Part shown: positions 15,226 to 28,339 of the stretch, piece by piece
How the letters are laid out: each line of letters starts with the position of its first letter
Position numbering within the stretch: position 1 is the first letter of the stretch
From: Firmicutes bacterium HGW-Firmicutes-9
GTDB taxonomy: Bacteria; Bacillota; Clostridia; Christensenellales; CAG-138
Length of the DNA stretch: 64,000 bases
Assembly (NCBI GenBank): GCA_002841395.1
Contig: PGZM01000001.1
Coordinates: forward strand, 62,001 to 126,000
Reading direction: 5' to 3'
Position numbers and translations under genes: made by a program
The notes under the pieces: generated by a model
The model's database searches: none
The model's input: the letters and a program-made list of their open reading frames with translations, nothing else
What the model was told of the DNA's origin: nothing

Positions 15226-15388
15226 TTTTTTTGTTGCGCAATTTCCTAGTAATTTGAACAGTCTATACAGAAATGTGATAGACCATTGTCATTGTGAAGA
15301 GAGTGTGATACGCTTGCTTTCAGACGGTCGCCTGACCGAACCAGATTACATTTCTATGCAATTCTTTCTGGATGGGAGCAACGCAATA

Positions 15389-17224
15389 ATGGAGACAAAC
15401 GTAGCGCCGGAGATGGTCGCGACGGACGAGAAATCCGCCGCAGAACAACTTCGCAAAAAGACCTTTCACCGCAACAAGTGGTTCTATTCCATCAGCGGTA
15501 TAGGCCGCGACATGAGCTACTCGCTGATCGACTCGTTCCTGCTGATCTACATTCAGTTTGGCGTTTCGCTGACGCTTGCGCAGTTCACGACGCTGAGCTT
15601 GATCATCGGCGTCGGCGGTCGCCTTTGGGACGCAATCAACGACCCGCTGATGGGCGCGATCATCGAAGGCTCGCACTTTAAAAAAGGCAAGTTCCGTCCG
15701 TGGATACTGCTCGGCGGCATCCTGTGCGGTCTCGTCATCATCGTGATGTTCAACGTGCAGAGCATTCCCGGCTGGCGCTTTGTCGTGTTTATGACGGTGA
15801 TGTACCTATTATGGGAATCTACGTTTACGATGAACGACATCGGCTATTGGGCGATGCTGCCAAGCCTTTCGAGCGTGAAGGAGGAGCGAAACTCCATTAC
15901 GACGCTCACCGTGCTCTTTGCGGGTGTCGGCGCGATTCTCGCGCAGGGCATCATTCCGCAGGTGACGGTTGGCGACATGCGCGCGGGCTATCGCTTTGTT
16001 TCGATCCTGATCGCCGCCGTGTTCATCGGCTGCCAGATCCTGCTGTTCTTCACGGTAAAAGAGCCGCCGCGCCGCAAGGTTGAAAACAGCGAAAACATCT
16101 CGCTCAAGAAGATGTGGAAAACCATCGCGCGGAACGACCAGGTACTCTGGATGACGCTCTCGATGCTCTTCTACAACATTGGCAGCACAATGTTGATCGC
16201 ACTTGCTGCAAACCTACTCTATATGGAAGTTGGATACAACGGCACGCTCTACTTCTACGTGGTCGTGGCATATGGCGTGACGATGGTCGCGGTCAACGCG
16301 CTCTATCCCGCGCTGGTCAACCGCCTCGGCAGAAAGCGGCTGCAAAACTGGAGCATTCTTCTCGCCGTCGTCGGCTACGCCTTGATTGCGCTGTTGGGCT
16401 GGCTGCCGGTTCTGCCGTTTAGCATCGCACCTCTGTGCGCATTTATCATCATGGTTTCCGCGGGGCAGTCGCTGTTCTACATGAGTTGCATCATCAATAT
16501 GGCGAACTGTGTGGAGTATAACGATTATAAACACGGCGAGCGCAACGAGGCAGTTGTTTCCACGCTTCGCCCGTTTATGGCGAAGTTTGCTGCGGCGATG
16601 CACACGCTGATCGTGACGCTCGTGCTCACCATCTCCGGTACGTTCCTGCTGAGCCAGTCGATCAGCACGCTGGAAACCCAGCGCGACTTCTTCGACAAAC
16701 ACAGTCCCGCCGATCAGGTCTACTACATCCAGCAGGTGCAGGACTACCTCAAGGAATATGAAGGGCTCAAGGCCGGAACGCCGGAATACAAAGCCGCTGC
16801 TGAACTGGTTGGCAAAGAGATTGCGGCGGACGACGTCATCAGCAAGTTCCAGCTGGATCCGGAGTATGTGCCCGCGTTGAGCGACGCGATGGTGATCGTC
16901 AAAACCGAGGCTGGTGAAGAGAAAGAGCTTGAAAGACTGGGCTCGTTTGATGCGAACTCCATCTCGGCTTCCAGCGGAACGTTCTCGATCAAGATCGACG
17001 ATCTCAAGAGCGGAGAAGAAAGCGCGGCGAACCTGCATTTCCGCGACCAGCGGACGCTGACCATGCGCATCTGGGTGCGCCTTGCCGCGACGCTGCTGCC
17101 CGCGCTGATGCTGTTGATTGCGCTGTACATTCAGAAAAAGAAGTTCATCATCGACGAAGATTACTACGATCAGATGATGCACGATATCAATAACCGCAAA
17201 GAAGAGGAGAGCTCTCTGGCATAG
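15389..17224 (+). CDS. GPH-family (MelB-like) sugar:cation symporter with ~130-aa soluble insertion before the last TM
   Basis: GRDMSYSLIDSFLLIYIQFGVSL..GGRLWDAINDPLMGAIIE..KFRPWILLGG; hydrophilic segment ETQRDFFDKHSPADQVYY...LHFRDQRT before final TM. Confidence 0.85.
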   Translation: METNVAPEMVATDEKSAAEQLRKKTFHRNKWFYSISGIGRDMSYSLIDSFLLIYIQFGVSLTLAQFTTLSLIIGVGGRLWDAINDPLMGAIIEGSHFKKGKFRPWILLGGILCGLVIIVMFNVQSIPGWRFVVFMTVMYLLWESTFTMNDIGYWAMLPSLSSVKEERNSITTLTVLFAGVGAILAQGIIPQVTVGDMRAGYRFVSILIAAVFIGCQILLFFTVKEPPRRKVENSENISLKKMWKTIARNDQVLWMTLSMLFYNIGSTMLIALAANLLYMEVGYNGTLYFYVVVAYGVTMVAVNALYPALVNRLGRKRLQNWSILLAVVGYALIALLGWLPVLPFSIAPLCAFIIMVSAGQSLFYMSCIINMANCVEYNDYKHGERNEAVVSTLRPFMAKFAAAMHTLIVTLVLTISGTFLLSQSISTLETQRDFFDKHSPADQVYYIQQVQDYLKEYEGLKAGTPEYKAAAELVGKEIAADDVISKFQLDPEYVPALSDAMVIVKTEAGEEKELERLGSFDANSISASSGTFSIKIDDLKSGEESAANLHFRDQRTLTMRIWVRLAATLLPALMLLIALYIQKKKFIIDEDYYDQMMHDINNRKEEESSLA

Positions 17225-17243
17225 CTCCAATATGACGAGAGAC

Positions 17244-17278
17244 GATAAACGCGCCGAATTATATTCGGCGCGTTTATC
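17244..17278. terminator. Bidirectional terminator between convergent genes
   Basis: GATAAACGCGCCGAA-ttata-TTCGGCGCGTTTATC-TTTT. Confidence 0.85.
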
Positions 17279-17297
17279 TTTTGCTTCTATATGGTTT

Positions 17298-17339
17298 TCA
17301 TTTTGTCCATTCACTCGCTTCCGGGAAGTTTTGCATGTG
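17298..17339 (-). pseudogene. Duplicate 3' tail of the PIG-L deacetylase gene (14 codons: HMQNFPEASEWTK-stop)
   Basis: CACATGCAAAACTTCCCGGAAGCGAGTGAATGGACAAAATGA, 30/42 nt identical to the true gene end (17358-17399). Confidence 0.8.
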
Positions 17340-17357
17340 TAGGTAATTTGGAAAAAA

Positions 17358-18122
17358 TTACCTCACCCACTCACTTGCTTCTGGGAAGCAGTGCATGTGC
17401 ACCGTGGACAGCGCACGGTAGCCATCGGCAAGACCGATAAGCTGCCGCAAACCCAACCGGATCGAGCGAAGCTTGAAATACATACAGATATCCGCAAGCA
17501 TCTTCTGGTCAAACTGGCTCTTGTGGCAGGCGAGCGCTTCCGCACGGGCAGAAAACGTCTTCTTGACACGCAGATAGGCGTTCGGCTTATCCGTATAGTA
17601 AAACGCCAACGCTTTCACCGCATGGCTGCCGGAAACGCCGATGCTGAGCATCACGCTCTCAAACGGCGCCATGTTCATGCTCATCTTCGCGGCCATTCCC
17701 GTCTTGATGTGGTCAATGTGGCACTCGCTGATCACGTTTGGGTCGGGCGCGAACACAACGTCCGGCTTGATGCGAACGATCTGCTTTGCGATCTCGGAAG
17801 CCGCATCCTCCATTCGATACATCCCGCCGTCATAGAGCGGCAAAAACGTCACATCCGTCACGCCAAGCAATTTCGCGGAAGCCAGCGATTCCTGCTGACG
17901 GATCGCCACCAGCTCCTCACCAAAAAGAGCGGGATCGATGCCGCCCATTCGTCCGTCGGTGAGAATCACGAACGAGACGTGCTTTCCTGCCGCCGTCAGC
18001 GCGCGGATGCTCGGCGCGCAGGCGACCTCGATATCGTCCGGATGCGGACCGATGAACAGATACCGCTCATATGCATCGAGTTTGGGAATCGGGGCGACGC
18101 GTTTTAAGATGGCGTTGAACAT
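17358..18122 (-). CDS. PIG-L (LmbE-like) family deacetylase
   Basis: YLFIGPHPDDIEVACAPSIRALTAAGKHVSFVILTDGRMGG..; start ATG 18122; ORF-track extension to 18599 antisense to GH20 rejected. Confidence 0.88.
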   Translation of the reverse strand: MFNAILKRVAPIPKLDAYERYLFIGPHPDDIEVACAPSIRALTAAGKHVSFVILTDGRMGGIDPALFGEELVAIRQQESLASAKLLGVTDVTFLPLYDGGMYRMEDAASEIAKQIVRIKPDVVFAPDPNVISECHIDHIKTGMAAKMSMNMAPFESVMLSIGVSGSHAVKALAFYYTDKPNAYLRVKKTFSARAEALACHKSQFDQKMLADICMYFKLRSIRLGLRQLIGLADGYRALSTVHMHCFPEASEWVR

Positions 18123-18283
18123 GTATCTTCCTCCGAAGCGAGAACTGATTTGCACTCGTAACAGTATATCACCTGTGCGGCGTTGCCGTAAGCTGTGATG
18201 CAAGGTATAATGAAAATTGCATCGAACAGTTACAGCGAACGAATTATTGACGAAATACGCGCGAAAGCAACGGGGGACAACGC

Positions 18284-19864
18284 ATGCCGATTCCAAACAT
18301 ACGCAGCCAGCAAGTTTTAGAAGGCAGCGTCTTGCTTTGCCGTACAGATGCGGTGTTCGATCCGGCGCTCGCCGGCGCGTGGGAGGGTGTGTTTGCGATG
18401 CTTTCTCTTGGCGAGCAGTCGCCTGAAACAGAAGGCATGAAAGCAGAATTTCGGCTGAACAGCGCGCTTCTTGAGGAAGCGTACACCATCCGTGCGAATG
18501 AGAACGGCGTGCTCGTCGAGGCGGGCGGCATCGCAGGCGTGGTGTATGCGGCGGGTACACTTGCGCAGCTTTCTGCAGAGCACGACGGAAATCTGCCATG
18601 TTGCGTGGTCGATGACGCGCCGGAGCAACCCTGGCGCGGTATTCTCATCGACGTCTGCCGCCACTTTTTTCCGATTTCTACCGTCAAGACGCTCGTCGAT
18701 TTGATGGCGTACTACAAATATAATCGCCTGCACCTGCATCTCACCGAGGATCAGGGGTTTCGCTTTGAGAGTGAGAAGTTTCCGCTGCTCAACAGCGTTG
18801 GTTCCTATCGCAAGAGCACGTTTGACAGGCACAAGGATAATAAAGGACATAACGGAACGCCGCACGGCGGGTACTATACCAAGTCAGAGCTTCGCGAACT
18901 CGTGCGCTATTGCAAAGCCCGCGGAATCGAGATCGTGCCCGAAATCGATATGCCCGGTCACGCGCTCTCGATGATTGCGGCGTATCCCGAACTCGCGTGC
19001 GTCAACGAACCTGTAGAGGTTGCGACCTACTTCGGCGTGACGGATTTTTCAAAGAAGCTTTTCTGCGCGGGCAGCGAGAAGACGTTTGAGTTTTTATTTG
19101 CGCTCCTGGACGAAGTGCTGGAAATCTTTCCGTTCCCTTATCTGCACATCGGCGGAGACGAGGCGCTCAAGAGCGAATGGAAACGTTGCGCACGCTGCCA
19201 GAAAGTCATGCGCGAGCAGAAGTTGAAGGACGAGCACGAGCTGCAAGGCTATTTTCTCAACCGTGTGATCGATTATCTAAAAGCGCGCGGCAGAGAGGCG
19301 ATCGTCTGGAACGACGGGCTTTGCGATACGCTCTCGCGGGACGCGATTTGCCAATACTGGACGCCGCTGACGAAGAAAGGCCCCGGACAGATTGCGCAGT
19401 ATGTCAACGCGGGCGGGCGGGCGATTCTCAGCCCGGTGACGCGCGTTTATTATGACTATCCCTATGCCGCAACGCCGTTGAAGAAGACTTACGGCCTTTC
19501 GCCTTTGGTGCGCGGTGTTAAAAAAGAGCACAGTCGAGATATCCTCGGCGTAGAGGCGGCAATCTGGACGGAGTGGATCGATTCTGAAGAGAAATTGTTT
19601 TTCAACACGCTGCCGCGCCTCGCCGCGACGTCGGAAACGGGATGGTCAGTTCAAGCGCACATACACTACAGCGCGTTTTTGAAGCGACTCCAGCCGCACT
19701 ACGCGCTCTATGAGCGACTTGGATTGACCTATGCAAAGCAAGTGGAGAAACCACTGCCGGTACTGCGCCGGATCAAGGGTACCGCGCAGTTTGTTGCGGA
19801 AGAGACGCACGCAGAACTCTATGCACAGCAGAAGACAGAGCAAAGCCCATCAAAACGGAGGTAA
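18284..19864 (+). CDS. Beta-N-acetylhexosaminidase (GH20), no signal peptide
   Basis: WRGILIDVCRHFFPISTVKTLVDLMAYYKYNRLHLHLTEDQGFR; VPEIDMPGHA; LHIGGDEA. Confidence 0.92.
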   Translation: MPIPNIRSQQVLEGSVLLCRTDAVFDPALAGAWEGVFAMLSLGEQSPETEGMKAEFRLNSALLEEAYTIRANENGVLVEAGGIAGVVYAAGTLAQLSAEHDGNLPCCVVDDAPEQPWRGILIDVCRHFFPISTVKTLVDLMAYYKYNRLHLHLTEDQGFRFESEKFPLLNSVGSYRKSTFDRHKDNKGHNGTPHGGYYTKSELRELVRYCKARGIEIVPEIDMPGHALSMIAAYPELACVNEPVEVATYFGVTDFSKKLFCAGSEKTFEFLFALLDEVLEIFPFPYLHIGGDEALKSEWKRCARCQKVMREQKLKDEHELQGYFLNRVIDYLKARGREAIVWNDGLCDTLSRDAICQYWTPLTKKGPGQIAQYVNAGGRAILSPVTRVYYDYPYAATPLKKTYGLSPLVRGVKKEHSRDILGVEAAIWTEWIDSEEKLFFNTLPRLAATSETGWSVQAHIHYSAFLKRLQPHYALYERLGLTYAKQVEKPLPVLRRIKGTAQFVAEETHAELYAQQKTEQSPSKRR

Positions 19865-20991: not shown

Positions 20992-22185
20992 ATGAAAATC
21001 CTCGTTTGCAACGTTGGCAGCACTTCGCTGAAATATCGCCTGTTTGATCTGACCTCCGGAGAAGAGACGCTTTCCGAAGGGCGTATGGAGCGCGTCGGCA
21101 CGCAGGCAGGCGCGTGGTCGCACAAGAATGCGGGGCAGGAAGCGGTCAAGCAAACGCTGCCGATTCCCGACTATGCCACGGGCATCCGGCTCATGCAGGA
21201 AGCGCTGCTTGTCAAAACGCTGGACAGCATGGAGTCGTTGGATTGCGTCGCGTTCAAGGTTGTGCATGCGCAGGGCGTAACCGGCGTGCAGCTGCTCGAT
21301 GAGTCCGTGCTCTCTGCGATGGCGGCGTTTAAAACGGTCGCGCCCAGCCATAACCCGCCGTATATTGCCGCGATCCGTCAGTTTCAGCAAGCGTTGCCGA
21401 ATACGCCAATGATCGGCTCGTTTGAAACCGGCTTTCACGCGACGATGCCGCCCAAGGCGTATCTCTATTCCGTGCCGATTTCGCTTTACAAGGAGCATGC
21501 CATCCGCCGCTACGGCTTCCACGGCGCGTCGCACGAATACGTGACCACGCGTACGTCGGAGCTCATGGGTCGAACCGATATCAAACTGATCTCCTGCCAT
21601 CTTGGCGGCAGCGGCTCGCTCTGCGCAGTCGTGAACGGCAAGTCGCTCGATACCAATCTCGGGTTCTCTTTGCAGTGCGGCATCATGCACAACAACCGCT
21701 GCGGCGACATCGACCCGTATATCCCGATCTATCTGATGAAGGATTTCGGCTATTCTCTCGCGCAGATCGAGACCATGCTCAATAAGGAAAGCGGCCTGCT
21801 CGGCATGAGCGGCGTTTCCAATGACCTGCGGGATGTGGAACTGGCGGCGGAGACAGGAAACGAGGACGCGCAAAACGCGGTGGACAGCTATTGCTACCAG
21901 ATTCAGAAGCAGATCGGCAGTTATGCCGCCGCGATGGGCGGTGTGGACGCGATCTCGTTTGCGGGCGGCATCGGCGAGAACAGCGCGCTCGTGCGCAGAA
22001 AAGCGCTTGAAGGGTTGGAGTTCATGGGCGTTTCGCTCGATATAGCGAAAAACGAAACTGCAAAGCCGGACTGTGAGCTCACGGGCGAAGGCAGCCGCGC
22101 GCGGATTTTCGCCATCGCCACCAACGAGGAGATCGTGGTTGCGCGAAAAGCAAAAGCGTATCTCGCCTCCCGCACACAAGCATGA
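20992..22185 (+). CDS. ackA: Acetate kinase family protein
   Basis: MKILVCNVGSTSLKYRLFD; GFHGASHEYV; CHLGGSGSLCAVVNGKSLDTNLGFS; FAGGIGENSALVR. Confidence 0.88.
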   Translation: MKILVCNVGSTSLKYRLFDLTSGEETLSEGRMERVGTQAGAWSHKNAGQEAVKQTLPIPDYATGIRLMQEALLVKTLDSMESLDCVAFKVVHAQGVTGVQLLDESVLSAMAAFKTVAPSHNPPYIAAIRQFQQALPNTPMIGSFETGFHATMPPKAYLYSVPISLYKEHAIRRYGFHGASHEYVTTRTSELMGRTDIKLISCHLGGSGSLCAVVNGKSLDTNLGFSLQCGIMHNNRCGDIDPYIPIYLMKDFGYSLAQIETMLNKESGLLGMSGVSNDLRDVELAAETGNEDAQNAVDSYCYQIQKQIGSYAAAMGGVDAISFAGGIGENSALVRRKALEGLEFMGVSLDIAKNETAKPDCELTGEGSRARIFAIATNEEIVVARKAKAYLASRTQA

Positions 22186-27318: not shown

Positions 27319-27348
27319 AGGTTACCTCAGCGATCAAAATTGTAGTCG

Positions 27349-27399
27349 TCAAATAAACGCAAACTGTTTTAAAACAAAGATAAAGAGAGACATCGTCAC
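27349..27399 (-). pseudogene. Duplicate 3' tail of AEC permease gene (17 codons: VTMSLFIFVLKQFAFI-stop)
   Basis: 43/51 nt identical to true gene end 27401-27451 (VTMFIFIFALKQFAFI-stop); the two copies are separated by one nucleotide. Confidence 0.85.
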
Positions 27400-27400
27400 G

Positions 27401-28339
27401 TTAAATAAACGCAAACTGTTTCAACGCAAAGATGAAGATAAACATTGTCACAATCGATAGCACGCTGGTCACGGCGACAAGCGTGCCCGCTAGTTCGTCG
27501 TCCGCCTGCATGCCGACCGCCATCGAATAGGTGACCATTGCGACCGGAGCCCCGAAGATAATCAGTGAAACGACGATGTGTTCACCGCGGAAACCCAGAA
27601 GCAGAAACGTGGCAACCATGATCAGCGGTATCAGAATGAGCCTAAGTAGAGATACCGCGAGAATCGCCGGGCGGTTCTTCTTCACAGCGGCAAACGAGAT
27701 AGTGCCGCCAAGCAGCACAAACGCGAACGGCGTTGTCGAAGCCGCGAGTGCGTCGATGGGTTTTTGCAAAACGGCGGGTAACTTGAGCTGGAGAAAATTC
27801 GCGAGAAAGCCCGCCAGGCACGCGATGATGACTGGATTCTTCAGAACCCGAAGGAGCACCTCGCCAAAGCGCACTTGCTCGCCGCGGTAGCGTTCCATGG
27901 CAACGACGGATAGCGTGTTAAACAGCGGAACGGTGAGCGAAACCGCGATCGACATCATGCCGAGATTGTCTTCGCCAAGCAGCGCCGCCGCAACCGCGAG
28001 GCCGAAGATCGCGTCGTTGGAGCGGAACACACCGAGAATCAGCACGCCGCGCCGGTTGTTCTCCTTGGAGAACACGGGCACGAGTAACGCAGTCAGCGCG
28101 TAGATGATCGCAATGCCGATTGCCATATAGAGCAAAAACGGCGTTGCAACCATCGCCTTGAGGTCAGCCGCCGCAATCGCGCGGAAGCACATCAGCGGCA
28201 GCGTAACGTAAAAGATGATCTTGTTTGCGTTTCGCATCAGATCTGTGGTTACGATATTGGTTTTGCGCAGCACGACGCCGATGATCATGTAGATCATCAG
28301 AGGCGCAACGACGCTGAACGATAAAAGTAAGTTTTCCAT
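27401..28339 (-). CDS. AEC (auxin efflux carrier) family transporter
   Basis: MIYMIIGVVLRKTNIVTTDLMRNANKIIFYVTLPLMCFRAIA..; multi-TM. Confidence 0.88.
   Translation of the reverse strand: MENLLLSFSVVAPLMIYMIIGVVLRKTNIVTTDLMRNANKIIFYVTLPLMCFRAIAAADLKAMVATPFLLYMAIGIAIIYALTALLVPVFSKENNRRGVLILGVFRSNDAIFGLAVAAALLGEDNLGMMSIAVSLTVPLFNTLSVVAMERYRGEQVRFGEVLLRVLKNPVIIACLAGFLANFLQLKLPAVLQKPIDALAASTTPFAFVLLGGTISFAAVKKNRPAILAVSLLRLILIPLIMVATFLLLGFRGEHIVVSLIIFGAPVAMVTYSMAVGMQADDELAGTLVAVTSVLSIVTMFIFIFALKQFAFI

Follow-up and report, generated by a model that had tools for sequence, protein, structure and literature searches.

A PIG-L/LmbE-family deacetylase gene in the DNA analysed here (the window, 64,000 nt in full) is followed by a second, decayed copy of its own 3' end, which starts just past the stop codon and stays in the same frame. 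This second tail is an ordinary small DNA duplication and not a second gene. Very probably it arose by tandem duplication in situ in the common ancestor of the window genome (G000) and its closest sister species (G002), and it was perhaps retained as a hairpin in the 3'-untranslated region (3'-UTR).

The repeated tail and its host gene

The features of the locus, in window positions, were as follows.

17358..18122, minus strand: PIG-L/LmbE-family deacetylase gene, 254 aa, intact (Pfam PF02585, E 7.7e-28)
17358..17399, minus strand: copy 1, the last 13 codons (HMHCFPEASEWVR) and the stop codon TAA; tail conserved in 80 relatives and 40/42 identical in G002
17340..17357, minus strand: linker of 18 nt, 14/18 identical to G002
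17298..17339, minus strand: copy 2, a decayed gene-tail duplicate (HMQNFPEASEWTK-TGA), 30/42 identical to copy 1 and 31/42 to the orthologous copy of G002
17341..17363, minus strand: inverted repeat AGGTAATTT-TTTCC-AAATTACCT with the stop codon inside; AGGTAATTTT-TAG-AAAATTACCT in the sister species
17308..17397, minus strand: predicted RNA hairpin of copy 1, linker and copy 2 (~90 nt), MFE -32.7 kcal/mol, z -4.0
17244..17278, no strand assigned: terminator, a perfect palindrome with a 16-bp stem between the convergent PIG-L and MFS_2 genes, T-rich tail on the plus strand

On the minus strand the order is CACATGCACTGCTTCCCAGAAGCAAGTGAGTGGGTGAGG-TAA, the 18-nt linker and CACATGCAAAACTTCCCGGAAGCGAGTGAATGGACAAAA-TGA, with a period of 60. 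The repeat had been reported in an earlier reading made from the letters alone (the sequence-only reading), and its coordinates, reading and identity were all confirmed. When the 130 nt downstream were simulated 100,000 times with a first-order Markov model, the best ungapped matches to the tail averaged 17.4 (sd 1.3) and reached 24 at most, compared with the 30/42 observed. An assembly artefact is excluded, because the sister species, which was assembled independently, shows this arrangement too, in a sequence that differs in its letters. The differences inside PEASEW had been described as all synonymous, which is literally so in G000, while the flanking codons have changed (HC to QN and VR to TK) and the copy of the sister species reads HMQDFPEAGEWVR.

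A near-perfect inverted repeat in the linker and stop codon had been overlooked. Its stem is 9-10 bp long, the site occurs only once in the whole genome, and shuffled linkers gave such a stem with a probability of ~0.002. Further genomic copies were sought as a sign of a dispersed REP-, MIRU- or MITE-like repeat and only this locus was found, and an Rfam search of positions 17000-17700 gave no score close to the gathering threshold.

The host protein scored 98 bits with PF02585 against a cut-off of 28.2, which places it in the family, and it carries both the HPDD metal motif and the HIDH motif. The closest solved structures were the diacetylchitobiose deacetylases PDB 3wl4, 8bgn and 3we7 (E ~1e-33 to 6e-32, near full length). 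The host gene is thus a full-length relative of these members of the PIG-L/LmbE superfamily, with the HPDD and HxDH motifs and the conserved C-terminal His, which aligns with the conserved tail His (HMHC) of PIG-L. In contrast, the duplicated tail alone is no protein domain and lacks that His, having Gln in its place. The gene is flanked by a GH20 hexosaminidase and a convergent MFS_2 sugar transporter (window 15254-19864), a neighbourhood that suggests a putative cluster for the utilisation of chitobiose or N-acetylglucosamine oligomers. The palindromic terminator at 17244-17278 is distinct from the duplication and was also found in G002 and G003. The interval from the terminator to the stop codon of the MFS gene is 19 nt long and 100% identical in the sister species.

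Source and age of the second copy

The window genome was compared with seven relatives of the genus, and a full-length PIG-L orthologue was present in five genomes, G000 included. When the locus was aligned with its closest relatives, as the sequence-only reading had proposed, an orthologous copy 2 was found in G002 (Christensenella sp. UBA7703), the closest sister species, whose PIG-L protein is 84% identical at the amino-acid level. It lies at the same place with the same spacing (HMHCFPEASEWVR-TAA-FLENYL-HMQDFPEAGEWVR-TAA) and matches the tail of G002 itself at 36/42 positions. The second tail was absent in G003, which has the same convergent MFS neighbour, and in G005 and G006, which have another neighbour, and a scan of 103 family genomes for the two-tail pattern gave matches in G000 and G002 only. 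The PIG-L gene tree joined G000 and G002 as sisters (support 94/95), and their second copies are in register and share the derived CAARAY where CACTGC stood. The duplication is old, since the two species are only ~57% identical at four-fold sites; copy 2 predates their split, and the earlier statement that it is not a recent slippage product holds.

The sequence-only reading had taken copy 2 for the end of a separately evolved homologue, displaced by xenologous replacement or site-targeted insertion. Such an origin would account for the 12 differences from copy 1 in 42 nt, and for a segment that starts and ends like a gene tail. However, all 80 relatives whose tails were surveyed, a check that had also been proposed, end in an HxHC.PE-like tail in which H, C and P/E are nearly invariant, and an HMQN ending was found in 0/80. 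The serine codon of the tail is AGT in both copies of G000 and in copy 1 of G002, and GGT in copy 2 of G002. The same serine is TCN in G003, G005 and G006, and a single change never converts TCN into an AGY serine codon. Since no HMQN tail occurs elsewhere in the survey and AGT is lineage-specific, copy 2 was derived from the tail of its own lineage. The close match of the G002 copy to its own copy 1 argues the same way. Moreover, the two copies are only 18 nt apart, with no insert, integrase or island between them, and G003 has neither a second tail nor a displaced gene end despite the same neighbour. Descent from a displaced homologue is therefore hardly credible. The sequence comparison identifies copy 2 as a copy of this gene's own tail, made in the common ancestor of G000 and G002, and not as the remnant of a xenologue: it lies adjacent to its source, and the unduplicated state is found at the same place in G003.

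An extra PIG-L fragment of G006 was considered as an orphan tail, but this reading was dropped. The fragment is situated at the end of a contig and is slightly different from the other copy; the assembly is fragmented (87% complete, 7% contamination), and a strain variant is the most likely explanation.

The duplication in the G000/G002 ancestor would have involved a unit of ~60 bp, after the split from the rest of the genus. With the stop codon inside the duplicated unit, the gene would have remained intact, and copy 2 would have become 3'-untranslated and free to decay. For the mutational step we infer a template switch during replication at the short inverted repeat of the linker, rather than simple slippage. 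G006, which has no duplication, already has the 5' arm (AGGTAATTTT; GAGGTAATTTT in G006), so that the 3' arm is what was added, in agreement with a template switch, a mechanism described in PMC8794818. The PIG-L case resembles quasipalindrome-associated short tandem duplications, which arise by slippage or template switching, in its head-to-tail copies 60 bp apart, its near-palindromic unit and the inverted repeat at the junction. It differs from them in that it straddles a stop codon, is old enough to occur in two species that have diverged, and has counterparts at several other gene ends of the genus. REP/BIME palindromes and MIRU-type intergenic repeats are palindromic, lie at gene 3' ends and can fold as RNA. 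These properties are shared by the PIG-L repeat, which, unlike them, is single-copy, comes from the gene's own coding sequence and belongs to no dispersed family.

Hairpin and conservation of copy 2

The hairpin predicted for G000 was also predicted for G002 (-34.0 kcal/mol, z -3.9), with 26 pairs shared, and its stability exceeded that of shuffled sequences in each of the two species. When the tail was duplicated exactly and the linker shuffled, the predicted fold reached -34 to -37 kcal/mol, which is as stable or more so. Duplicated tails fold anyway, because the codons for CFPEA are nearly palindromic. As exact duplication alone gives the fold, the hairpin was a by-product at birth and is no proof of selection.

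Over 102 nt, G000 and G002 differ at 17 positions, and the only three transversions all lie in the apical loop (linker). In conservation tests picked post hoc, after the data had been seen, all 33 pairs of G000 could still pair canonically in G002 (P 0.000-0.001 when an equal number of changes was placed at random), and in the reverse null 32 of the 36 pairs of G002 were kept in G000 (P 0.04-0.15). Compensatory double changes were sought between the two sequences and none were found; the three shared pairs that vary have one-sided, pair-keeping changes. In tests picked in the same way, the stem part of copy 2 was 27/33 identical (82%), compared with 13/29 (~45%) in the next 29 nt (Fisher P 0.003), while the third positions of the flanking genes were ~62% identical.

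The differences between the second copies of G000 and G002 are all transitions (11/11). The 0 transversions in 42 sites of copy 2 compare with 0.16-0.24 per site at third positions or four-fold sites (P ~7e-4 to 1e-5). Ordinary mutation bias was considered as the cause and found unsupported: at low divergence, the four-fold sites of G000 and G004 showed 27 transitions and 32 transversions (~46% transitions). The transition-only pattern is either unexplained or points to constraint.

Readthrough of the first stop codon, whether programmed or latent (the latter also raised in the sequence-only reading), would add a 20-residue extension to the protein, and re-initiation at the ATG of copy 2 would yield a 12-residue peptide; the peptides would be FFPNYLHMQNFPEASEWTK. 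Copy 2 is indeed open and in frame in both species, and 10/14 codons, the stop included, keep their meaning, so that amino-acid retention in the two species is somewhat above that under random change (P 0.004-0.02), a result that some coding constraint could also give. But both species have a T after the first TAA stop, a poor context for readthrough, and nothing resembling a Shine-Dalgarno sequence precedes the ATG in copy 2. Copy 2 has diverged in its C-terminal codons and stop (5/10 nt) and has lost the conserved His and Cys of the tail, and the other gene-end duplications of the genus are out of frame. Conservation ends with the stem and does not reach the final codons of copy 2 or its stop, so that a hairpin fits better than translation. 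The readthrough extension is unsupported, and we consider any translation of copy 2 very unlikely.

It is possible rather than probable that the near-palindromic tail, once duplicated, gave one long hairpin at the 3' end of the mRNA, and that this hairpin made the stem portion of copy 2 decay more slowly. Such a hairpin might stabilise or insulate the 3' end of the mRNA ahead of the terminator. Alternatively, copy 2 may be purely neutral, the decaying product of one duplication whose similarity comes from chance, conversion or template-switch repair between the arms and not from selection, an account to which we give somewhat less than an even chance. It agrees with the species-specific and decaying state of comparable gene-end duplications and with a hairpin that comes free with an exact duplication. 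The two copies within a genome agree in their first His codon (CAC in G000, CAT in G002), a hint of conversion, and template switching is reported in PMC8794818 to preserve stems where selection is absent. However, copy 2 is free of transversions (0/42) and its stem part is better conserved than the adjoining sequence (P 0.003), both of which speak against neutrality, and the 12 differences between the two G000 copies exclude a recent wholesale conversion. On moderate evidence from two sequences, copy 2 is possibly kept as a predicted 3'-UTR hairpin, and it is almost equally likely that it persists neutrally or through conversion between the arms.

Gene-end duplications elsewhere in the genus

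A direct-repeat scan (lag 42-130, threshold at least 30/42) was run on a sample of ~0.8 Mb of DNA. It found further 3'-end duplications that include the stop codon.

27347-27451 of the window, minus strand: AEC-type transporter gene (27401-28339), G000, period 52, copy 2 out of frame
L128:19670-19780: rpe, G000, period 49
L130:1770-1880: MFS gene, G000, period 47, perfect 24-nt repeat
L190-L191 (G002:C6) near 21291: argJ, G002, period 53
L113 near 1055, minus strand: RNR-like gene, G003, period 79

None of the periods 52, 49, 47, 53 and 79 is divisible by three and none keeps the reading frame. As the comparable gene-end duplications are all out of frame, the in-frame spacing at PIG-L is unremarkable, and the frame of its copy 2 is probably a coincidence. 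The MFS duplication is missing in the close relative G004 and the AEC duplication in the sister species G002, and the polarity is therefore one of gain. In the duplicated tail of argJ the differences are 8/8 transitions. An intergenic array of imperfect ~55-nt repeats with GAAGGCACGATCGC palindromes, followed by a terminator, was observed at L120:12380-12620 on contig C2 of G000.

Duplications of this kind were counted at 7 of ~1,056 genes of the genus (PIG-L counted in both species) and at 0/498 in two other groups, a difference that is not significant; the count used in the test was slightly larger (8/1,056, Fisher P 0.06). The genes of the scan were the longest non-overlapping ORFs, assigned mechanically, so that the categories are approximate, and PIG-L of G000 was mislabelled by an antisense ORF. 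Three more 3'-end matches start at or after the stop codon and were left out of the count, and a gapped comparison of intergenic identity was too lenient to serve as evidence. The excess of gene-end duplications in the genus is thus suggestive only. Within a partial coverage of the literature, no description of recurrent gene 3'-end duplications of this kind was found. Gene 3' ends of the genus might be subject to an unusual process that repeatedly duplicates 50-80 bp in tandem, stop codon included, and the PIG-L duplicate might be one that was taken into use as a 3'-UTR hairpin and retained in more than one species; we regard this combination as unlikely. If true, it would mean that RNA elements are born from a gene's own tail.

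These results indicate that a second tail can be in frame and differ synonymously without being a lost homologue or a readthrough extension. The same picture arises when a palindromic gene tail is duplicated beyond its stop codon. Part of copy 2 has decayed more slowly than expected, and if the excess in the genus holds genome-wide, it would offer a tractable case of 3'-UTR structure arising from coding sequence.
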